Shown here piece after piece: positions 13,784 to 30,630 of a stretch of DNA of 36,434 nucleotides. Origin of the DNA: Mesotoga infera (lineage in GTDB: Bacteria > Thermotogota > Thermotogae > Petrotogales > Kosmotogaceae); NCBI GenBank assembly GCA_011045915.1, contig DSBT01000082.1, positions 1 through 36,434 of the forward strand, given 5' to 3'. A model generated the notes under the pieces. The model made no database searches. It saw only the letters and a list, made by a program, of their open reading frames with translations, and had not been told where the DNA came from. Position numbers and translations under genes: made by a program. The stretch's first letter is position 1, and the number at the start of each line of letters is the position of its first letter.

Positions 13784-16255
13784 TCAGAAGGCAGGCCCGA
13801 AACCAAAGAACGGTGTCCCATAGTAAGGTTTTCCACTTGTCGAACTCTGATCGGCCAGATGGGTATTATATCCGTAACCCAGCCTAACCAGTCCTATCAT
13901 CGGTATTGAGATATCCAAACAAAGACCGAAGTCCGCAAGGAAGTTGCCTCCAATAACATCTCCACCAGAGGTATTACGATAGAAAAGCAAGTCGCCAAAC
14001 CCTACAATGTCTACAGGTATTGATGAAGCTTCTGGCGTAAGCGGATATCTTAATTGTGCAGAACCGACGGTTACCCCGTACGCGTTTTGGCCTATACTCT
14101 GTGAACCTCTTACCCTAATATATGTGTCGGGGCTCAACAAATAGCTCCTGAAGACCCCCTGCGGAGAAAGAGGAAACAACTGCTGAGTCCTTATTCTGAA
14201 TCCGAGAACTGGATCTCCTATAGACATGAAGTTCCTGTATTCTGCATAACCAGATACAAATAACTTGTTTCCCTTTCCAAATATCCCTCTTACGTTCAAG
14301 CCTGCAAGGTACTCGCTTCCCATCGTCGGCCTCATAAGATCATCACGCGTCGTAAGCTCGTAGCTCAAACCCGTGAAGAGACCGTCAAAACTTTCGGATA
14401 TGCTGCCAGTCTCCGTTCCCGTTGATGCCTTAGTCGCTGTGGAAACCTGACTCTCGGACATCAAGTATTCATAACCGGCAGTGAATCCGACTTTCTGTCC
14501 TGGTGAGATATTGTAGATAGGAGTCAAGGAAAACATGAACTCCGTTTCCTGCGATGACTTTTCAACTAGAGTATCCGTTGAATCGACAGTCGTATTGAAT
14601 CCGGTAAACTTCAGTTTGAAGGCTGTATCGAGATCAAGACGAGAGTCGGCGATCTTCGGTATTGAATAACCGATCGTGGCATCGAAGGCAGGTCTTCTTG
14701 TAGTTGTTTCAGTTGCACCGTCGGTGACAACTATTTCTTTATTATTAGGCATGGGGAGCGTGACGCTGAGAGTAGTCGAAATGTTCTGACCGTAGCCCCA
14801 AACATTGAGAAGACCGAGATCCAGATAGAGATTCAGTCCATTCTGCCAGCCTCCTCCGCCGCCAATCTTGTTGTTCTTGTCGGTTTCCTTGAGCGTGATA
14901 TTGACATCTAGCGCATCCGTACCCACAGGCACAGGAACGATGTCCACTTTGGAAAAATAGCCTGTATTGTTCAAGAATGCATAGGTGTTCCTGAGTTCAT
15001 CTAAGGATAAAACCTTGCCCTTTTCTATAACTATCTTCTCGCTAATCAGATAGTCCTGTGTCTTCTTTGGACCGTCAAACTCGACCGTGATGTCTCTGAC
15101 TTGCGGCTCCGTAATCTTGAGACTGAAGAAACCTATCTTCTCATCAATTGCCGGCTCGATTCTCATGAAGGGATACCCACTGTCGCTGTACATATCCTGA
15201 ACAGCCTGGACAGCCTTCGTTGCGACTTCGTTGTCAACCTTCTGACCTTCGATAAGTCCTGTCTCCCGAAGAATTTCGCCTTTCTGGAGATTGACGTTTC
15301 CTTCAACAAAAACACTCCTGAGATTGAATTCAGACTTCACATATTCAACAGGTGTAAAGGTTATGCTCATCGACAACGCACTGTTTTCCTTGACCTCTTC
15401 GGGAAGAGTTACCTGCCTCACACTTTTCAAAGCATTGTTTAATGTCATGATCATTGCTTGGTATGTTAAGTCGTCAAGTCCCCACTGCCCATTCCGGTTG
15501 GCATAGTAAGTACTGTAAATTGTCTGAACAGCTGTGTTTATGTCTTCTATCTTGGGGACGTACTTTTTCTTTGAATTAATCCACCTTATGAGAATTGAAG
15601 TATCATAGTACTTCTTCAGGTAATCCATTTGCAACTTACTAGCAAGATAGGATTTTGCGTCATCGGAAATAGGTGCATCTATCGTAATTTCCCAGAGGAA
15701 GGACACTTTGACTTTGAAAGTTACCTTCACCCTGTCAGAAATGTTGCCTGAAAAGATGTCTGATCTGCTCTTGTCTGTTTCCCAATCCACTTTGACAAAC
15801 GGTTCTATGTAACCATTTTCCCTTAGTTCAACTTCAATGGCTTCCAAAGTGAGCGGAATATCGTACATCAGTCTGGAGGGATTCATAGGCTTGCCACTTT
15901 TAATAACTGAGACAGACTCCAGAACAGATTCTTCAACGATTTTTGGTCCATCGAACGCGACTACAACATCCACTACGGGATACTCTTTTACCTGTATTGA
16001 TAAAAGGTTAGACGATTCATCAAAAGAGTAGTAAACGTCGGAAAAATAGCCACTGCTCTTTACTCTTTCCAAAGCATCCCTGATTTCGGAATCGCTGATC
16101 TCTTTACCACGTTGAATGTTCAGCATCCCAAGAATTTCATTGTCTGAGATAACTCTGTTGTCAAGAATTGCTATTCTTGTGGGAATCATACCTGCTGCTA
16201 CAAAAGCAGAGATCAGAACCAATGCAAAAATTACAAACAGTCTTCTAGTAGACAT
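13784..16255 (-). CDS. bamA: BamA/Omp85-family outer-membrane assembly protein
   Basis: Outer-membrane beta-barrel insertase of the BAM machinery, here for the thermotogal outer envelope. The ATG at 16255 follows GGGAGG at a spacing of 8. A signal peptide (Arg-rich start, hydrophobic residues 6-22) is followed by several POTRA repeats with the usual ...GYFSDV..., ENGYIEPFVK, SGYPFMRI and NTGYFSKVDI endings over about residues 27-460. The barrel follows, beginning with KIGGGGGWQNG, and the chain ends in a C-terminal Phe, the classic barrel insertion signal. At 823 residues it has the expected length, with a long insertion between POTRA-like segments at about residues 180-290. It is the last gene of the 20-gene minus-strand operon and overlaps the HATPase gene by 11 nt. 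No other Bam subunit is nearby. Confidence 0.93.
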   Translation of the reverse strand: MSTRRLFVIFALVLISAFVAAGMIPTRIAILDNRVISDNEILGMLNIQRGKEISDSEIRDALERVKSSGYFSDVYYSFDESSNLLSIQVKEYPVVDVVVAFDGPKIVEESVLESVSVIKSGKPMNPSRLMYDIPLTLEAIEVELRENGYIEPFVKVDWETDKSRSDIFSGNISDRVKVTFKVKVSFLWEITIDAPISDDAKSYLASKLQMDYLKKYYDTSILIRWINSKKKYVPKIEDINTAVQTIYSTYYANRNGQWGLDDLTYQAMIMTLNNALKSVRQVTLPEEVKENSALSMSITFTPVEYVKSEFNLRSVFVEGNVNLQKGEILRETGLIEGQKVDNEVATKAVQAVQDMYSDSGYPFMRIEPAIDEKIGFFSLKITEPQVRDITVEFDGPKKTQDYLISEKIVIEKGKVLSLDELRNTYAFLNNTGYFSKVDIVPVPVGTDALDVNITLKETDKNNKIGGGGGWQNGLNLYLDLGLLNVWGYGQNISTTLSVTLPMPNNKEIVVTDGATETTTRRPAFDATIGYSIPKIADSRLDLDTAFKLKFTGFNTTVDSTDTLVEKSSQETEFMFSLTPIYNISPGQKVGFTAGYEYLMSESQVSTATKASTGTETGSISESFDGLFTGLSYELTTRDDLMRPTMGSEYLAGLNVRGIFGKGNKLFVSGYAEYRNFMSIGDPVLGFRIRTQQLFPLSPQGVFRSYLLSPDTYIRVRGSQSIGQNAYGVTVGSAQLRYPLTPEASSIPVDIVGFGDLLFYRNTSGGDVIGGNFLADFGLCLDISIPMIGLVRLGYGYNTHLADQSSTSGKPYYGTPFFGFGPAF

Positions 16256-16808
16256 TCGATAAACCTCCCAGTGATATTTCTGCCTCTTGAAGAATACCTA
16301 GAATCATCTTCATTTTGACTGGAAAAGTGAAACAGTCGTTCCCCAAAGCTTCTCTAAACTGAGATGAAGAGAATGTGTAGCCATCTTCATCGAGGACTCT
16401 CTCTACTGTCCAGTCTACATCATCATTCATAGTAATTACAGCAAATAGAGTCGAAGGGATATCTCCCACAGGCTGACAATCAAAACTAGAGAGCAAGAAA
16501 GACGCAGTTATTTCCGTACCCGATCCCATTTTTGAGTCAATTAGGAATCTTCCTCCAGTAGCCTCCGCTGCAAATTTCAGCATTGGGAGTCCTAGTCCGA
16601 ATTTCACTTTCTTTCTCTTCTCTGTAAAGAAGGGATCCAAAACAGCCTCAAGCAATTCAGAAGGAATTCCCTTACCCCAATCAAGTACTGAAAAAGAGAA
16701 ACTACTTCCTCTCTTCTCCTGGATTCTTAGTTCAGCCTTCTTAGTTCCGGAATCTACTGCATTTTGAGCAATGTCAAGTATGTGATCGCATATTGTTCTC
16801 AGTCCCAT
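16245..16808 (-). CDS. Stand-alone histidine-kinase-type HATPase protein
   Basis: An ATP-binding GHKL domain without a dimerisation/phosphoacceptor (HisKA) domain, sensor or membrane segment. N-box HILDIAQNAVDSG (9-21), G1 box DWGKGIP, F-box-like DPFFTEK and G2 box KFGLGLPM are all present, so ATP binding looks intact. About 70 residues after the HATPase fold are unassigned. The ATG at 16808 overlaps the end of the PHP gene by 10 nt, and the stop overlaps bamA. With the four preceding genes it forms a compact signalling module. From memory, such DRTGG/CBS-HATPase/PHP/HATPase genes are often found beside [FeFe]-hydrogenase genes in Clostridia and Thermotogota; no hydrogenase gene is present here. 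Its target is unknown. Confidence 0.8.
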   Translation of the reverse strand: MGLRTICDHILDIAQNAVDSGTKKAELRIQEKRGSSFSFSVLDWGKGIPSELLEAVLDPFFTEKRKKVKFGLGLPMLKFAAEATGGRFLIDSKMGSGTEITASFLLSSFDCQPVGDIPSTLFAVITMNDDVDWTVERVLDEDGYTFSSSQFREALGNDCFTFPVKMKMILGILQEAEISLGGLSNVY

Positions 16809-17518
16809 ATTATTTCCAACGCCTTTCCAAAAGAAAAAATCGCCGCCTGAAACTCTTTAAAACTCCTTGTATTCGCCGAAATGAACACAGTGGGTGCAAT
16901 TACATTCAAACTGTGAGCATCGCTTGAATGAAGGATGTTTCTTGACTCAAAGCCTTTAGTTAAGGTCTTTCTAAAAGAGATCTCCATCGGTACCTCTCTA
17001 TACTCCTCGGGGATAACTCCGAGCTGAGTTATAAGGCCCATCTTCCTGTCAACATGAGCCATAACTGATATCCCCCCGTTATCATGAACAGTTTCTAGAG
17101 TTTCTGAGATGCTCAGAGTAGTTGGTTGGCCAAGCCAGAATTCTTCCACTCCGGTAAAGGAATCATCATCATCGACGAACAACTGATAACCAGATATTTC
17201 TGGATCTACTGCAATATGCGGAAGCCTCTCCTTTCTAATCCAGTCAGAATAAGCCTCGGCCAGCGAAACCTCAGGAAAATACGCCAAAACATGAACGTCT
17301 TCAACTGTATGTACTTCTATACCAGGAATGAAAGACACTCCAGCTCTACTCAGAACTCTACTGAAAACCCTAACATTCCCGGCACTGTTGTGATCAGTAA
17401 TTGAAACCCAATCGATCCCCTTTGACACGCATACTGATGCTATCTCGCGAGGAGTCATCGTGATATCTGCACAGGGAGATAGGCAACTATGAATATGAAA
17501 ATCACAAAGAAATGGCAA
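16799..17518 (-). CDS. PHP-domain metal-dependent phosphoesterase
   Basis: Predicted trinuclear-metal phosphoesterase of the PHP/YciV-like group. The TTG start at 17518 gives MPFLCDFHIHSC, and a GAAAGG site lies about 10 nt upstream. Metal motifs are FHIHSCLSP (about residues 7-15), ITDHN (about 40-44), GIEVHT, a central MAHVDRK and the late SSDAHS. At 239 residues it is the size of other single-domain PHP proteins. It sits 5 nt after a DRTGG gene and overlaps the HATPase gene, so it is part of the five-gene signalling module. Substrates in this group include nucleotides and 5'-phosphorylated oligonucleotides; none can be assigned here. Confidence 0.85.
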   Translation of the reverse strand: MPFLCDFHIHSCLSPCADITMTPREIASVCVSKGIDWVSITDHNSAGNVRVFSRVLSRAGVSFIPGIEVHTVEDVHVLAYFPEVSLAEAYSDWIRKERLPHIAVDPEISGYQLFVDDDDSFTGVEEFWLGQPTTLSISETLETVHDNGGISVMAHVDRKMGLITQLGVIPEEYREVPMEISFRKTLTKGFESRNILHSSDAHSLNVIAPTVFISANTRSFKEFQAAIFSFGKALEIIWD

Positions 17519-17523
17519 ATCGC

Positions 17524-17859
17524 TCAGCCTTTCAAACCACTTTTCATTAGTTTCAAAGCAAGATTGAAGGTTGTTTCATCACTTTCAAGAAGCACAACTC
17601 CCGTCTCGTCGGCTTTTCTTATCGTAGTTTCCTCAAAATGCAGACCATTACAGAGAACTATCGCTCTTGCTCCGACAATTGTTGCTACGGCAAGTATGTT
17701 CATATGAGACTGAACAGTCAACCAGATTGACTCCGACGGGGCGTTCCCCATTACGTCGCTAAGCAAATCTCCGATGTAAGCGTCTGATATGTCTGCCTCT
17801 AGAGGCAAGCTAGTGATCACTCTAAGTTCGCACTTTTCAACTAGTTTGTTCAGCTTCAT
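17524..17859 (-). CDS. DRTGG-domain protein (second copy)
   Basis: A 111-residue single-domain protein. The DRTGG fold is recognisable from ISDAYIGDLLSDVMG, then a hydrophobic strand and the ATIVGARAIVLCNG segment with a conserved ETTIRKADETG region. ATG at 17859 was chosen because GGGAGG lies 7 nt before it and the CBS-HATPase stop (17861) is one base upstream. An in-frame extension to 17928 would run back into the CBS gene. DRTGG domains occur in phosphotransacetylase N-termini and in CBS-type pyrophosphatases, where the role is regulatory and ligand-binding. It is a diverged paralogue of the gene at 18813-19175, so two DRTGG proteins flank the CBS-HATPase. Its ligand is unknown. Confidence 0.8.
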   Translation of the reverse strand: MKLNKLVEKCELRVITSLPLEADISDAYIGDLLSDVMGNAPSESIWLTVQSHMNILAVATIVGARAIVLCNGLHFEETTIRKADETGVVLLESDETTFNLALKLMKSGLKG

Positions 17860-17860
17860 A

Positions 17861-18820
17861 TCATTTCCTCCCATTCTGATAAAAGTGCATTTCCACGACG
17901 ACCCCTTTTCCTGCTTCAGAGACCACAACCATCTTGTCCGAATATCTCCTCATGTTTGGCAGACCCATTCCAGCACCAAAACCAAGTTCACGAACATGAT
18001 CTGAAGCAGTTGAGAACCCTTCCTTCATCGCCTGTTCAACATTATCTATTCCTCTTCCATAATCCTCAACCCTTACTCTAGCAACGTCTTCATCGTACCA
18101 GGCAAAGATGTACCCTTCACTTCCGCTATGGATCACAACATTGACTTCAGCTTCGTAACAAGCAATCGAAACCCTTCTTATGAGGGTATCATCGTCTGTC
18201 AATGTCTTCAAATAACTCTTTAGCTTGGCAGACCCGACTCCCGCCGTGTCAATATCGGTATAATCAATGTGGTAGACGAAATCTGCACTGGTTTTTTCAA
18301 CATAGTCACCTGAAATCAAAGACTTGTCAAACCAGTCAACGCTTCTTTCCAGCACTTCTCTTCTTCTCGTATCGTGAACGTAAATAAGCCTAAATTTGTC
18401 AAGAATCGCCCCGATTATGTCCTTCTTGGAAATTATGCCGAGAAGCTTTCCGTTAGAATCCACCACCGGAAATCTTCCGTACCTGTAACGGTTGAATCGC
18501 TCGATTAGCATCTCGAGATTAGTCTCCGGTGAGAAAGTTATTAGGTCTCTGGTCATGTGCTTTTCTATTGGATCTGTAATGTAGTTACCTTCCAGAGCAA
18601 CAATTATATCTTCTATGCTGACTATTCCTTCAAGCTGATTGTCAACATCGGTAATGGGGACACCCGAAATCTTACAGATTCTCATGAGTTCCTTAGCCTG
18701 CCACATCGTTCTATCTTTAGTGAGAGTTACAACGCTTCTTATCATTATGTCTTCTGCCGTAATATCGGCGAACAATCCCCTCAGTTTGTCAAGAAGCTCA
18801 TCAACATTTCTTTCAGCCAA
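17861..18820 (-). CDS. CBS-pair protein fused to an anti-sigma-type (RsbW-like) HATPase domain
   Basis: A soluble regulator with an adenosyl-sensing CBS pair at about residues 31-150 (motifs include ISGVPITD, GIVSIEDII, GRFPVVD and GIISKKDIIGAI). After a linker comes a GHKL domain of the RsbW/SpoIIAB type at about 215-315, with N-box EAEVNVVIHS, G1 DYGRGI and GAGMGLPNMRRYSD. The start is taken as TTG at 18820, 8 nt after GAGGAAGG. Upstream in-frame codons run deep inside the preceding DRTGG gene, which it overlaps by 8 nt. An RsbW-like kinase normally acts on an STAS anti-anti-sigma partner, but none is encoded nearby. The fusion suggests that adenine-nucleotide state controls the kinase domain. 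Confidence 0.8.
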   Translation of the reverse strand: MAERNVDELLDKLRGLFADITAEDIMIRSVVTLTKDRTMWQAKELMRICKISGVPITDVDNQLEGIVSIEDIIVALEGNYITDPIEKHMTRDLITFSPETNLEMLIERFNRYRYGRFPVVDSNGKLLGIISKKDIIGAILDKFRLIYVHDTRRREVLERSVDWFDKSLISGDYVEKTSADFVYHIDYTDIDTAGVGSAKLKSYLKTLTDDDTLIRRVSIACYEAEVNVVIHSGSEGYIFAWYDEDVARVRVEDYGRGIDNVEQAMKEGFSTASDHVRELGFGAGMGLPNMRRYSDKMVVVSEAGKGVVVEMHFYQNGRK

Positions 18821-19175
18821 GATGTTTGCCTTCCTCAAGAGAATCTCCGAGACCCTCTCTGAATAGAATCCCACAGGCTCTATACATCGACATCTTTGCA
18901 TGGACAAGGGGCATGTCGAGTTCCCGAGCAAGCTCAATAGTGGTCTCAGGAACATTCCTCTTCCTAATAATGACTACTGCTGCAGCTCCAACCACAGAAG
19001 CTGTTCTAACACATTGAGGAGAGTTCAAACCCGTCACTAGAATCATTCCGGGGCCTCCAAAAGCAAGTACGTCACTCATCAGGTCGGCCGCACCCACTGA
19101 CTCTATCTCAGGATCTTCATCTTTGATGATGAGAACTTCACATTCGAGTAACTGGATGATTTTAGATAACCTCAT
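18813..19175 (-). CDS. DRTGG-domain protein (first copy)
   Basis: A 120-residue protein with one DRTGG domain ([17 protein letters not shown] ... [14 protein letters not shown] ... [15 protein letters not shown]). The ATG at 19175 overlaps the thyX stop as ATGA, with GGAGG about 6 nt upstream. It lies first in the DRTGG, CBS-HATPase, DRTGG, PHP, HATPase run. It is similar in layout to the second DRTGG protein but clearly diverged, which suggests an old duplication and possibly a heterodimer. Family knowledge gives only a regulatory, ligand-binding role. Confidence 0.8.
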
Positions 19176-19864
19176 CCCCTAACCTCCTTGTTCAGAAGAT
19201 CACCCGCGTAGTTGTGCTGAATGAAGGCGTCAAACGTCACCGGACAACTTGTCTTCAGAATCTCTGCAATCGCGATTGCATACTGCTGGATTTCCACTTG
19301 AGCATGTGAATCTGCCCTCTGGTTGAGGAAGTTCATCATCGACCTGACGTTTATGGTCCAGTAAGCCTCTGTGTACATTGAAGTTGGTAGAACGACTCGC
19401 GCTACCTCTCTCGCAACCCCAATTTCGAGAAGCTTTGAATATGCGTCAAAGGAATTTTTATAGGCTTTGCTGATAATTTCGATCGCCGTGTTGTTCAGCT
19501 TCGTGTCGTCACTAACAACCGAACCCTGCCTGTTGTCTCTGTCGGGAGTCCTTATTTCGCTCGGCAGATACCACTCTTCAGAGAACTCTGTATATCTACC
19601 ACTCCGCTCGTTGATAGACGCGATCCTGTGACGGACAAGCTGTCTCATCACAAAAATTGGAAGTTTCAAATGAAACTTGAACACAATATGTTCAAAGGGC
19701 GAATGATGCCCGTTCTTCATCAAGTAATGGATAAGGCGATCGTCTCTTTCTTTGTTTGTTAAACCCTTGCCGTAGCTAGTTCTCGCAGCTTGGACCGCAG
19801 AATAGTCATCACCCATCTGATCCACTAGCTCAACAAAACCTTTATCTAGAACATCAATCCTCAT
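19172..19864 (-). CDS. thyX: Flavin-dependent thymidylate synthase ThyX
   Basis: Makes dTMP from dUMP using methylene-tetrahydrofolate, FAD and NADPH. The signature RHRX7S is intact at residues 78-88 ([11 protein letters not shown]), followed by GRY. Other ThyX features are the N-terminal AARTSYGKG segment, HHSPFEH at 53-59 and the late [15 protein letters not shown]. The ATG at 19864 follows GGAGG and overlaps the TPR gene by 11 nt. At 230 residues it is the usual length. It shares the operon with trmFO, the other enzyme here that uses methylene-tetrahydrofolate and FAD. Confidence 0.96.
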
Positions 19865-26590: not shown

Positions 26591-27576
26591 ACAAAGCTCT
26601 CCAATCCCCTCCAAGTCTTTTCTCTAACAAACCTTTCAAACACTTTGGATCCAACGAAGAGCGTTTTATCAAGTCCTTCGTCGGGCATGCTGATTCTCAC
26701 ACCGCCCTTTTGATCAATCACATCCACTAGAGAAGACATGTCGATCCTTGAAGTCCAATCCTCTTTCCATAGTAGCCTGACAGACCGAAAGAAATCCTCG
26801 GCAATTTTGTTGTCATTTGCTCCCAATTCTTCAGCAAGGCGCAATTCGATCATTGCTCCGACGATCAGAGAAACTTGATTTCCTGCCCTCAGTCTCGAAG
26901 CTGTTTCAATGTGCCTCGCAATTTCCCCGCCAACAACTGATTTCCCAATCTCTATTCCAGTCAAATAAGCTTTTGCCGAGGAGAAAATCACATCATCCCA
27001 AAGCTCAGCTGATACTTCGCTGCCGGCAACTAAATGATTAAAGAGATACTTGAACAACCTCTTGTCGAAGGAAAGCGCAACTAGCAGGGGAAAGAGAAAA
27101 TTGCTGCGCGACAAGTGGCTGTAAGACCAGAAGCTGATAGATGAATCGATAAAGACTTTGTTGGGCAGTCCTTTTGACGAAAGTAAGTCTTTCACGAACT
27201 CGAAATTCACTCCGAATCCATTCACAGCAGGCATTATTTGACTTACAGTAGTCGTGGGAAAAAGGAAGAGCTTCTCAACTTCTGCATGACCTGCAGATGC
27301 GTAGCCTACAAGATCGATAATTGAACCTCCACCAATTACGGTAATAGCTTTGCTCTTGGACGTCCTTATCAGCTGATAGATTTCGAACACTCTATCAACT
27401 GACTTTATGTGTTCACCGCCAGGCATCAGATATTCGTCTTCCAAACTCTTTCCAAAAAACTTCCTGAATCCCGAGTCGACTATTCTTACAGACTGAGGAA
27501 GCCTGTCAATTAGATCCTTCCCAAAAATCAGCTGACATCTGTCTGCCGACTCCTTTGTGAAAGCAATTCTTCTCAT
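26587..27576 (-). CDS. Divergent 3-dehydroquinate-synthase-like protein, likely catalytically altered
   Basis: The fold of the AroB/glycerol-dehydrogenase superfamily is visible: GGEHIKS (53-59), the NAD-binding IGGGSIIDLVGYAS (81-94) and FPTTTVSQ (106-113). At the place of the AroB motif DSSVGGK there is MPAVNGFGV (115-123), and the AEVIKYG and NFGHTxGH zinc and active-site motifs are not recognisable. The remaining C-terminal segment (VGAMIELRLAEELG) aligns with the GMxxE helix of AroB. At 329 residues it is near normal AroB length. It therefore looks like a non-canonical paralogue. It may have a new substrate or a structural role. No other shikimate gene is present. ATG at 27576 overlaps the M42 stop (ATGA). 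Confidence 0.7.
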   Translation of the reverse strand: MRRIAFTKESADRCQLIFGKDLIDRLPQSVRIVDSGFRKFFGKSLEDEYLMPGGEHIKSVDRVFEIYQLIRTSKSKAITVIGGGSIIDLVGYASAGHAEVEKLFLFPTTTVSQIMPAVNGFGVNFEFVKDLLSSKGLPNKVFIDSSISFWSYSHLSRSNFLFPLLVALSFDKRLFKYLFNHLVAGSEVSAELWDDVIFSSAKAYLTGIEIGKSVVGGEIARHIETASRLRAGNQVSLIVGAMIELRLAEELGANDNKIAEDFFRSVRLLWKEDWTSRIDMSSLVDVIDQKGGVRISMPDEGLDKTLFVGSKVFERFVREKTWRGLESFV

Positions 27577-28583
27577 TCTACTCCTTCTTCTGCAAGCGCC
27601 TTCAGCAGTCGGACGGCATTGAGAACATCATCGTAGTCAACCATTTCGTGTGGAGAATGCACATATCTACACGGAATCGAGACGGTTCCCGAAGCTATGC
27701 CTCTTCCTGTCGTCTGATATCCTCTCGCATCTGTGCCTCCAAATATCAAGACTTCGTACTGAGTAGGGATGTCCCTTTTCTCTGCTACTTCCTTTAGCCT
27801 GGAAACGACTCTCGAAGAGCTAATGCTTCCACGATCCTTAATTTTTATGGTCGGACCTCCTCCAAGCTTAAAGCCCATTCGCTTGAAGGATTTGGGAGTA
27901 TCCGGTCCCGCAGTTACATCTATTGCAACTGCCATATCAGGCATAATATCAAAAGCGGCGACACTGGCTCCTACGATTCCCACTTCTTCCTGGACCGCAA
28001 AGACAAAATAAACATCGTCTTCGGGTTGCTCCAGTTCCTTCAGCACCTGAATCATTATTGCACATGCAATCCTGTCGTCCATTGATTTCGAAACTAGTCT
28101 CTTTCCGAGATCAACGAATGTTGAATCATATGTCCCAAAGGTACCAACTGGAGCTCTTTTCTCGGCGTCGTCTTTATCAGTAGCGCCAATATCAACGAAG
28201 ATGTGGTCGTAGTCGAGACTTTTCATTGTTTCTCCAAAATCCTTGATTGTCTCCCCTTCAACATCTACAACTCCTGAAGCACCGGTTTCAAAGACCAGCC
28301 TGGAACCCAGAAGCATGTACGGGGAGAGACCTCCTATTGAATCTACTCTCAGAAAACCCTTAGAATCTACGTGAGTAACAACCACACCAATTTCGTCCAT
28401 ATGACCATCAAACAACAGCTTTCTGCCGCTCCTCCCTTTCTTAAGAGCAACAAGATTTCCCAGAGGATCTATCTTCATCTCATCAATATAGGGTTTGATC
28501 TCTCCAGCTATTGCTTCTCTTATTGCATTCTCTCTGCCGCTGGGAGAACTAATCGTGACCAGCTTTTCAATTAGACTTTTCAT
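27573..28583 (-). CDS. M42-family aminopeptidase (third of three in tandem)
   Basis: Dinuclear-metal aminopeptidase of the M42 (TET/DAP, formerly 'endoglucanase') family that degrades peptides in the cytoplasm. Metal and catalytic residues are visible: FDGHMDE (His61, Asp63), SMDDR (Asp169/Asp170), VQEEVG (Glu199/Glu200), AIDVTAG (Asp222) and CRYVHSP (His309). At 336 residues it is full length. The ATG at 28583 overlaps the preceding stop (ATGA). It has 'AIDV' where the middle copy has 'VFEN', so the three copies differ near one metal ligand. Thermotoga maritima carries a comparable three-gene M42 cluster as I recall (TM1048-1050), so the arrangement is conserved. Confidence 0.92.
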   Translation of the reverse strand: MKSLIEKLVTISSPSGRENAIREAIAGEIKPYIDEMKIDPLGNLVALKKGRSGRKLLFDGHMDEIGVVVTHVDSKGFLRVDSIGGLSPYMLLGSRLVFETGASGVVDVEGETIKDFGETMKSLDYDHIFVDIGATDKDDAEKRAPVGTFGTYDSTFVDLGKRLVSKSMDDRIACAIMIQVLKELEQPEDDVYFVFAVQEEVGIVGASVAAFDIMPDMAVAIDVTAGPDTPKSFKRMGFKLGGGPTIKIKDRGSISSSRVVSRLKEVAEKRDIPTQYEVLIFGGTDARGYQTTGRGIASGTVSIPCRYVHSPHEMVDYDDVLNAVRLLKALAEEGVE

Positions 28584-29620
28584 CTAGACAGCACCTTCCC
28601 TTCCTTAACTAATATACTGGCAAGTTTGGCAACTCCAAGAAAATCGTTGATGTTTATTATTGAGGTTGGAGAATGAATGTATCTCGAAGGAGTGGAGATT
28701 ACTCCCGAAGGTATGCCAGAAACGACTCTTGCAAGTCTCGCTGCGTCAGTACCTCCAGCTATTCTGCTTTTGTACTGAAAACTTAGTGAGTTGGACTTCG
28801 CGGTTTCTACAACAGTATCAAGGATCTTCTTGTCAAGAACGAGCCCACTATGGGCGAATGTCAACACCGGTCCTCTTCCAAGACTTGTGGCCCATCTGTA
28901 GTCAGGAAGCTCCGGATTGTCTCCGGCAGTAGTGTTTTCAAAGACCAGAGCAACATCCGGCTTTATCTGATTTGCAGCGACTCCGCTGCCCCTTAGACCT
29001 ACCTCTTCCTGAACAACCCAGGCAAAATAGAGATCGAAATCAGTCGAAATTCCATCAAGACTTTCAAGCACTCTTATGAGAACCTCACAACCAGTTCTGT
29101 CGTCAAGGGATTTTGCAAATGCGTAGTCGCCTATTTCATTATATGGAGTATCGAAAAACACCGGATCTCCAATTCTATGGCTCTTAGAAGCCTCATCTCT
29201 CTTGGAATAGCCCAAGTAGATCCTCAATTTACCCATACTGGGCGTTTTTAGAATCGATGACGGATCTTGAGTATGTATCGCTTCAAATCCGATTACTCCA
29301 GGAGTAAGGCTTTCCCCCACCAAGACTTTCTTACCCATTAGCACTCTAGGATCGACTCCTCCAATATTGGTGAAAGACAGTGTGCCATCTTCATTGATCT
29401 TCTTTACCATTAGTCCGACTTCGTCCGTGTGAGCCAGAAGCATTAGTTTCTTCGAAGTCTTCCCATTTCCCTTCTTAAGGGCAATCAAGTTTCCAACTGT
29501 GTCTATCCAGATGTCGTCAACCCTGTCTTCAACGATCTCCTTAATGAAAGAGGAAACTTTTTCCTCAAATCCGGAAATCCCTGGTAATTCACACAGCTTC
29601 TTCAGTCTCTCAAGTTTCAT
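28580..29620 (-). CDS. M42-family aminopeptidase (second of three)
   Basis: Second M42 peptidase of the tandem set, 346 residues. Ligands are seen in LLAHTDEVG, SLDDRTGCE, VQEEVGLRGSG and SRYIHSP. The fourth ligand position reads VFENTTAGD, with Glu in place of the Asp of the neighbouring copies; Glu is tolerated in some M42 enzymes. The ATG at 29620 overlaps the first copy's stop, with GGCGGAGG upstream. Paralogues with differing pockets are expected to have different substrate preferences and may form mixed dodecamers, as described for archaeal TET peptidases. Confidence 0.92.
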   Translation of the reverse strand: MKLERLKKLCELPGISGFEEKVSSFIKEIVEDRVDDIWIDTVGNLIALKKGNGKTSKKLMLLAHTDEVGLMVKKINEDGTLSFTNIGGVDPRVLMGKKVLVGESLTPGVIGFEAIHTQDPSSILKTPSMGKLRIYLGYSKRDEASKSHRIGDPVFFDTPYNEIGDYAFAKSLDDRTGCEVLIRVLESLDGISTDFDLYFAWVVQEEVGLRGSGVAANQIKPDVALVFENTTAGDNPELPDYRWATSLGRGPVLTFAHSGLVLDKKILDTVVETAKSNSLSFQYKSRIAGGTDAARLARVVSGIPSGVISTPSRYIHSPTSIININDFLGVAKLASILVKEGKVLSR

Positions 29621-30630
29621 AGGCTCTCGCCTCCGTTCAGCGAGATAAAGAAACCTGCAAGCAATCGTGCTGTGCCCGCAACATCGCTAATCTGAACGAC
29701 TTCAACCGGGGTGTGCATGAACATTTGTGGAAGGGAAAGAAGCAGTGTTGGAACACCACTTCCGGCTATCTGGACGTTGTCTGCATCGGTTCCCGTTCGT
29801 CCCGATCCGAACTCATATTGAACTTTGAATTCCTTATCCTTCGCGTAATCATCAAGCAATTTGAAATATCCCTTGTGAATGTTTGGACCGCCAACAGATA
29901 GAGCCGGCCCCTTCCCGATCTCAATATCGCTCTCTTTATCATGATGAGTTACATCCATTGCAACTCCGAGATCTATTTCCAGCAATTCGGCGGCGCCCTT
30001 AGCTCCAATTGCTCCAACTTCTTCCCTTGTGGTAAACACGAAGTAGACCGTAGGAGTTGAGAGATACTTCGAAAGCTCTTTCGCAGTCTCTATGCTGATG
30101 GCTGCGCAGGCTCTATCATCTAGAGCTTTTCCGGATATTTTTCCGTTCATCTCAAATGCCGAAAAATCTACAACTGCAAGATCACCAATGTCGATCTTTG
30201 AATAATCGGGGTTGATTGAAGCATCGATGAATAGCTCGTCGAATGAAGGCACTTCTCCTCTAGACTCCTTCTTCTGGAGATGCGGAGCGAGCATCCCGAT
30301 AACTCCGTATCTTTCCTTTCCGTCTCTGCTCTTTATTCTCACCCTTTGAGAAATAAGAACCTTTGGATCTATACCTCCAAGTTCTTCAAATCTGGCGAAG
30401 CCTCTTTCATCGATTTTGGAAATCACCAGAGAGACTTCATCTACATGAGTAAATATCCCTATTCTCTTCCCTGTTCCTTTTTTGACTGCAACGAGATTTC
30501 CAATCTGATCTGTAAAGATCTCATCAACAAAGGGACCTATTTCTCGTCTAATCACTGAATGTACTTCATCTTCATATCCCACAGGTCCAAAAGCATCGGA
30601 GAGATCCATTAACAAACGGGCTAAACTCAA
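29617..30630 (-). CDS. M42-family aminopeptidase (first of three)
   Basis: First M42 peptidase of the tandem set, 337 residues. The start is TTG at 30630 after GGGGGAGG, overlapping the minC stop as TTGA; an ATG seven codons later is the alternative. Ligands are in GIFTHVDE, ALDDRA, TTREEVGAIGAKG, AMDVTHHD and MFMHTP. It is the most divergent of the three at the C-terminal metal His motif, having QMFMHTP where the others have RYxHSP. It is placed directly after minC in the operon. Confidence 0.9.
   Translation of the reverse strand: MSLARLLMDLSDAFGPVGYEDEVHSVIRREIGPFVDEIFTDQIGNLVAVKKGTGKRIGIFTHVDEVSLVISKIDERGFARFEELGGIDPKVLISQRVRIKSRDGKERYGVIGMLAPHLQKKESRGEVPSFDELFIDASINPDYSKIDIGDLAVVDFSAFEMNGKISGKALDDRACAAISIETAKELSKYLSTPTVYFVFTTREEVGAIGAKGAAELLEIDLGVAMDVTHHDKESDIEIGKGPALSVGGPNIHKGYFKLLDDYAKDKEFKVQYEFGSGRTGTDADNVQIAGSGVPTLLLSLPQMFMHTPVEVVQISDVAGTARLLAGFFISLNGGESL

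Follow-up and report, generated by a model that had tools for sequence, protein, structure and literature searches.

What do five tightly packed genes, encoding two small DRTGG proteins, two GHKL-type ATPases and a PHP-domain phosphoesterase, do in Mesotoga infera, and on which process do they act? The genes lie between thyX and bamA at positions 16245 to 19175 of contig DSBT01000082.1 (assembly GCA_011045915.1), whose 36,434 nucleotides make up the window. An earlier, sequence-only reading had seen in the five genes a signaling module and had associated similar genes with [FeFe]-hydrogenase operons in Clostridia and Thermotogota. On balance, we favor the view that they form a conserved regulatory or assembly cassette for NADH-dependent (electron-bifurcating) oxidoreductases of the NuoE-[2Fe-2S]-NuoF type, acting in trans in this organism. 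This view rests on gene content and arrangement, conservation across phyla, linkage to such complexes, intact ATP- and metal-binding motifs, and the presence of the target genes in the genome.

Linkage to NuoE-[2Fe-2S]-NuoF complexes

Scanning species genomes with an alignment of the CBS-CBS-RsbW-like ATPase of the module (CBS-RsbW) retrieved 80 loci, 77 of them outside Thermotogota, in Chloroflexi, Spirochaetes, Planctomycetes, Cloacimonadota, Aminicenantes, Delongbacteria, Verrucomicrobia, Kiritimatiellae and others. As the loci were retrieved by this protein, linkage to NuoEF was not a selection criterion. Among the 77, a DRTGG gene lies upstream in 59 and downstream in 60, the PHP gene is present in 58 and the HATPase gene in 45, and 38 loci hold the complete five-gene module. 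NuoF is found within 10 kb of the cassette in 46 of the 77, normally in the form NuoE–[2Fe-2S]–NuoF, and in 21 of the 31 loci whose two flanks each reach 8 kb or more; by our estimate, if a 3 Mb genome has two NuoF genes, a 20 kb stretch should contain one of them in only ∼1 to 2% of cases. The third subunit beside the NuoE/NuoF core varies, Pfam analysis of the large subunits giving FeFe-HydA, molybdopterin/NuoG-type or flavin-type Pyr_redox/ferredoxin proteins, with a strong FeFe-HydA match in only six of the 77. Relatives do accompany [FeFe]-hydrogenase operons, as the sequence-only reading stated, but that description is too narrow, the usual neighbor outside Thermotogota being a NuoE-[2Fe-2S]-NuoF core with any of several third subunits. 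In 23 loci (22 of the 77 and the Subdoligranulum locus described below), NuoE and the [2Fe-2S] gene flank a HATPase gene, and in seven a HATPase gene directly precedes NuoE. The cassette is thus very probably linked to complexes of this type. At one Chloroflexi locus (L149, 9549–14993), DRTGG-1 and CBS-RsbW adjoin a set of genes, one of which encodes, to judge by eye from its motifs, a [NiFe]-hydrogenase large subunit.

Within Thermotogota, 78 of 101 genomes encode a full-length CBS-RsbW protein, and there are two further partial copies. The loci read from families f1, f2, f3 and f8 (our labels) hold the five genes in the same order, and in nearly all cases thyX precedes and bamA follows them; the five families assigned to one module by the earlier reading do co-occur, here as in many other phyla. 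Families f9 and f10 retain only thyX–DRTGG-1–CBS-RsbW at this site, and the f5 genomes with the module that were read lack a HATPase gene at the locus. Family f4 has the CBS-RsbW gene alone, in one genome (L058, 9573–16112) with a CoA-binding-type gene on one side and, just downstream, an Rnf operon on the other. CBS-RsbW adjoins [2Fe-2S]/NuoF genes in all eight f6 genomes that have it, and it is mainly to this family that the hydrogenase linkage in Thermotogota applies; elsewhere the module usually has thyX and bamA on its two sides or other genes nearby.

A phylogenetic profile was compiled for the 82 Thermotogota genomes that are at least 90% complete, using the stand-alone [2Fe-2S] subunit of the window genome as query. 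This subunit is present at E < 1e-28, a cut-off chosen after seeing the data, in all 66 genomes with a full CBS-RsbW gene and in none of the 16 without it. The negatives from f2 have a short NuoF (485 residues in the two read), missing about 110 residues at its N terminus; in the f5 negatives read, there is no stand-alone [2Fe-2S] subunit. We rejected the idea that the short NuoF lacks its C-terminal ferredoxin domain: the missing part is N-terminal and is presumably the Trx-like [2Fe-2S] domain known from NuoF/HydB. Among less complete genomes, G077, G092, G096 and G098 are discordant, having the subunit without the CBS-RsbW gene, and G086 has the module together with a frameshifted [2Fe-2S] subunit gene. 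The profile is supportive of a link to [2Fe-2S] complexes and is not proof of it.

The module had been described as lying without hydrogenase, which is true only locally. A PF02906 search of the window genome (G000) gave no hydrogenase match, and all nine same-genus genomes searched gave one. When aligned with the window genome, a hydA region from the same genus falls on the end of contig C57 (L189) and the start of contig C277 (L190), and the final 97 codons of C57 match the beginning of HydA with 94% identity. The notion of a hydrogenase-free genome was therefore rejected; family searches score the genome in this way because hydA is split by an assembly gap. Contig C178 carries NuoE–2Fe2S–NuoF and, behind it, another NuoE–NuoF pair (L173, 11041–15922), with no catalytic subunit in the operon, and the module itself, on contig C82, is not linked to it. 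Of the two options offered by the sequence-only reading, control of something else or action in trans, the second is the better supported, as the target genes lie on other contigs.

A version of the cassette containing a hydrogenase was found at two Clostridia/Bacteroidota loci. The Parabacteroides record (L091) encodes a DRTGG protein, an RsbW-like protein without CBS domains, a 459-residue hydrogenase-like protein, DRTGG, PHP and HATPase proteins; the Subdoligranulum record (L092) encodes DRTGG, RsbW, a small protein, a 424-residue hydrogenase-like protein, DRTGG and PHP, with NuoE–HATPase–2Fe2S–NuoF–HydA on the opposite strand. Compared with the RsbW part in the window, identity is 42% in the first and 47% in the second. 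Neither locus has a CBS pair, and at both a group D sensory hydrogenase is inserted ahead of DRTGG-2. The inserted proteins carry the Cx2Cx4Cx16C motif and, behind the H-domain, PF04060, both of which are described for group D HydS (PMC8163306); neither protein gave a PAS match. Group D (M2e) sensory [FeFe]-hydrogenase genes, such as that of TamHydS, are reported to lie upstream of the genes for trimeric bifurcating hydrogenases, with kinase-like ATPases nearby (PMC8163306, PMC3561251). The module in the window differs from these loci in having a CBS pair in place of the hydrogenase, and no group D protein with the Cx2Cx4Cx16C motif is present in the window. The mutual exclusion of CBS pair and group D hydrogenase is a matter of two loci against about 80, and a scan of viral contigs for further group D loci found none. 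Separately, a Thermotoga-like HydA-NuoF-NuoE locus (L083, 8773–15786) includes a HydS-like protein and a 379-residue gene product that by eye resembles a SpoIIE/PP2C phosphatase.

Gene layout and conserved motifs

All five open reading frames of the module were confirmed where they had been placed, in a single, tightly overlapping run on the minus strand in the order thyX, DRTGG-1, CBS-RsbW, DRTGG-2, PHP, HATPase, bamA. The gene for thyX (19172–19864, minus strand, as are all those that follow) is the conserved upstream neighbor in most Thermotogota families sampled, and its end shares four bases with the ATG of DRTGG-1 (18813–19175, 120 residues). CBS-RsbW (17861–18820, 319 residues) is followed by DRTGG-2 (17524–17859, 111 residues), the PHP gene (16799–17518, 239 residues, TTG start) and the gene of the small HATPase_c protein (16245–16808, 187 residues, no phosphoacceptor domain), whose ATG lies within the end of the PHP gene. 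The ATG of bamA/Omp85 (13784–16255), the downstream neighbor conserved in f1, f2, f3 and f8, in turn overlaps the HATPase gene. As several genes overlap their neighbors by a few bases, the module genes are probably co-transcribed and translationally coupled. Two start sites were revised. The mechanically called CBS-RsbW frame (17861–18955) begins at ATG 18955, 143 bases within DRTGG-1; homology and the Shine-Dalgarno-like GAGGAAGG make TTG 18820 the most likely start. For DRTGG-2, ATG 17859 replaces the mechanical TTG 17928. Elsewhere in the window (27573–30630), three related tandem frames resemble M42-type aminopeptidases by eye.

CBS-RsbW exceeds the curated Pfam cut-offs for two CBS stretches (2.9e-29) and for HATPase_c and HATPase_c_2 (3e-8 and 3.4e-7), and its ATPase domain matches spIIAB (4.2e-13) and anti-sigma F (1til, 5.1e-9). 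The ExxxN (E226, N230), DxGxGI and GFGAGMG motifs are invariant or nearly so in sets of 32 and 104 relatives (numbering of the 322-residue stretch 17864–18829). The GHKL ATP-binding motifs and the catalytic Glu four residues ahead of Asn, invariant in the 32 aligned relatives, agree with those of RsbW/SpoIIAB. In both CBS halves the [ST]xxD motif is present, S71-D74 and S134-D137 being conserved at 88 to 94%. A predicted model is good within domains (mean predicted local distance difference test score, pLDDT, 86.8), while the domain arrangement is uncertain (predicted template modeling score 0.58). The protein thus shares the GHKL fold, the ExxxN catalytic pair and the G boxes with SpoIIAB/RsbW kinases, but differs in being fused to a CBS pair and in having DRTGG partners instead of STAS; no STAS partner, adjacent SpoIIE or sigma factor is encoded within the module.

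The PHP protein matches its Pfam family above the curated cut-off (3.1e-6). Across 75 relatives, H8, H10, S14, C16, D42, H43, E68, E73 and H155 are conserved at 100% and D200 and H202 at 99%, so that the metal ligands are kept along with an invariant C16 within the HxHSCLSPC motif; the protein resembles the nucleoside-bisphosphate phosphatase, TrlF and RNase Rnm families. The small HATPase likewise exceeds the cut-off for HATPase_c (1.8e-12), and N16, D43, G45, G47, G71, G73 and D110 are invariant in 63 relatives.

Both small DRTGG proteins fall short of the Pfam gathering score for DRTGG (18.4 and 15.3 bits against 25.2; E 0.002 and 0.018), and DRTGG-1 additionally matches PucR (1.5e-4). A profile built on one of the two detects the other. 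DRTGG-2 has a confident predicted fold (pLDDT 96.5). In a fold search against the PDB, the structures closest to the model were AF1212, a DRTGG protein (2ioj, E 2.7e-6), and a Clostridium perfringens pyrophosphatase in its CBS-DRTGG region (3l2b/3l31), matches that identify the modeled structure as a DRTGG fold; a PDB search with the DRTGG-2 sequence gave nothing useful. Homology supports the assignment of DRTGG-1 to the same family. A DxxS motif is kept in both proteins, with Ser34 at 99 to 100%: D31, S34 and L37 are conserved at 99% and Q54 at 98% in 82 relatives of DRTGG-1, and D31, S34, T48, H52 and N54 are invariant in 57 relatives of DRTGG-2.

Possible roles of the cassette

We consider a regulatory or assembly role probable. 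In the scheme that we propose, the CBS pair, or the group D sensory hydrogenase at the Clostridia/Bacteroidota loci, would sense energy or redox state and control the RsbW-like ATPase; this kinase would modify the DRTGG proteins, which would take the role that STAS proteins have in classical partner switching; the PHP enzyme would remove the modification; and the small HATPase would pass the signal on to the NuoE-2Fe2S-NuoF part. In most Thermotogota, the cassette would have been displaced from its target operon and would act in trans. A phospho-switch with DRTGG proteins as substrates is a tentative suggestion: the conserved motifs fit a sensor–kinase–acceptor–phosphatase chain and fit a nucleotide-binding complex equally well, since an invariant Ser/Thr can serve either.

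Several observations weigh against a cassette dedicated to these oxidoreductases and working in this way. About a third of the well-flanked loci have no nearby NuoF, some loci hold only DRTGG-1 and CBS-RsbW, and most Thermotogota carry the module without linkage to NuoEF; the distance is about 60 to 62 kb in complete same-genus genomes, where hydA is about 88 kb from the module. For the phylogenetic profile, a Fisher p of 2e-17 overstates the evidence for co-occurrence, because the cut-off was post hoc, nine of the 16 negatives (family f2) carry a more distant [2Fe-2S] subunit, and the 16 form about three clades, with few independent losses. One genome that is 88% complete (G074) has NuoE-2Fe2S-NuoF, with a more distant [2Fe-2S] subunit, and no module. 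Known DRTGG domains bind ligands, and to our knowledge none is a kinase substrate.

A nucleotide-sensing metabolic circuit, in place of a phosphorelay, is a rather doubtful alternative, in which the CBS and DRTGG domains bind AMP, ADP, ATP or Ap4A, PHP cleaves a nucleotide or other small phosphoester, and the ATPases act as nucleotide-gated chaperones. The CBS-DRTGG region of the C. perfringens pyrophosphatase, matched by the DRTGG-2 model, binds nucleotides, and the ribose-binding [ST]xxD motif in both CBS halves and the relatives of the PHP protein point the same way. That family II pyrophosphatase (3l2b, 3l31) combines both domain types, whereas in the window they are on separate polypeptides together with GHKL ATPases and no pyrophosphatase domain. 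Such a circuit leaves unexplained why there are two different GHKL ATPases and why the CBS pair is lost from the hydrogenase-containing version.

We regard as unlikely a pure maturation or repair factor, in which PHP and the GHKL ATPases would serve the assembly or insertion of the Trx-like [2Fe-2S] arm of NuoE-2Fe2S-NuoF complexes and have no part in signaling. The HATPase gene between NuoE and 2Fe2S in 23 loci would suit it, as would the observation that the module goes with having an N-terminal domain on NuoF as well as a stand-alone [2Fe-2S] subunit, one of which is lacking in the f2 and f5 negatives examined. Yet one would sooner expect CBS domains, a kinase of the RsbW type and an inserted sensory hydrogenase in a regulatory system, and both the loci reduced to DRTGG-1 and CBS-RsbW and the module-free complex of G074 speak against it.

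Classical partner switching, with CBS-RsbW as the anti-sigma factor/kinase of a STAS protein encoded elsewhere, is improbable. Besides the RsbW/SpoIIAB-like domain, it draws on the rest of the genome: the lack of a STAS or phosphatase partner noted in the earlier reading holds for the module, but elsewhere the genome encodes a single STAS protein, a single SpoIIE phosphatase and a further RsbW-like protein. The sole STAS gene found (contig C315; L191, 2424–4345) belongs to a separate, complete REC-SpoIIE–STAS–RsbW set; having a SpoIIE and an RsbW gene of its own beside it, it was rejected as the partner, which leaves the CBS-RsbW kinase without an obvious one. That unrelated housekeeping genes became neighbors by chance, as the setting between thyX and bamA in most Thermotogota might suggest, is ruled out by the conservation of gene order and content across phyla, where the same five families cluster amid differing flanking genes.

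The NuoE/NuoF-type core of the HydABC/Bfu electron-bifurcating family (PMC9304861) is the usual neighbor of the cassette, and the text of that study makes no mention of CBS, PHP, kinase or ATPase. The literature searched on DRTGG with hydrogenase, bifurcation or RsbW yielded no description of the whole cassette. It is conceivable, though rather doubtful, that the cassette represents a widespread, undescribed phospho-switch, in which DRTGG would replace STAS, PHP would replace PP2C, and interchangeable sensors would set electron flow through bifurcating enzymes. The regulation of electron-bifurcating complexes in anaerobes is poorly known, and how the signal leaves a group D sensory hydrogenase is a stated open question (PMC8163306). 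A cassette that recurs beside bifurcating enzymes in many phyla, and includes such a hydrogenase at the two Clostridia/Bacteroidota loci, offers named candidate partners, and it probably tunes electron routing in anaerobes.

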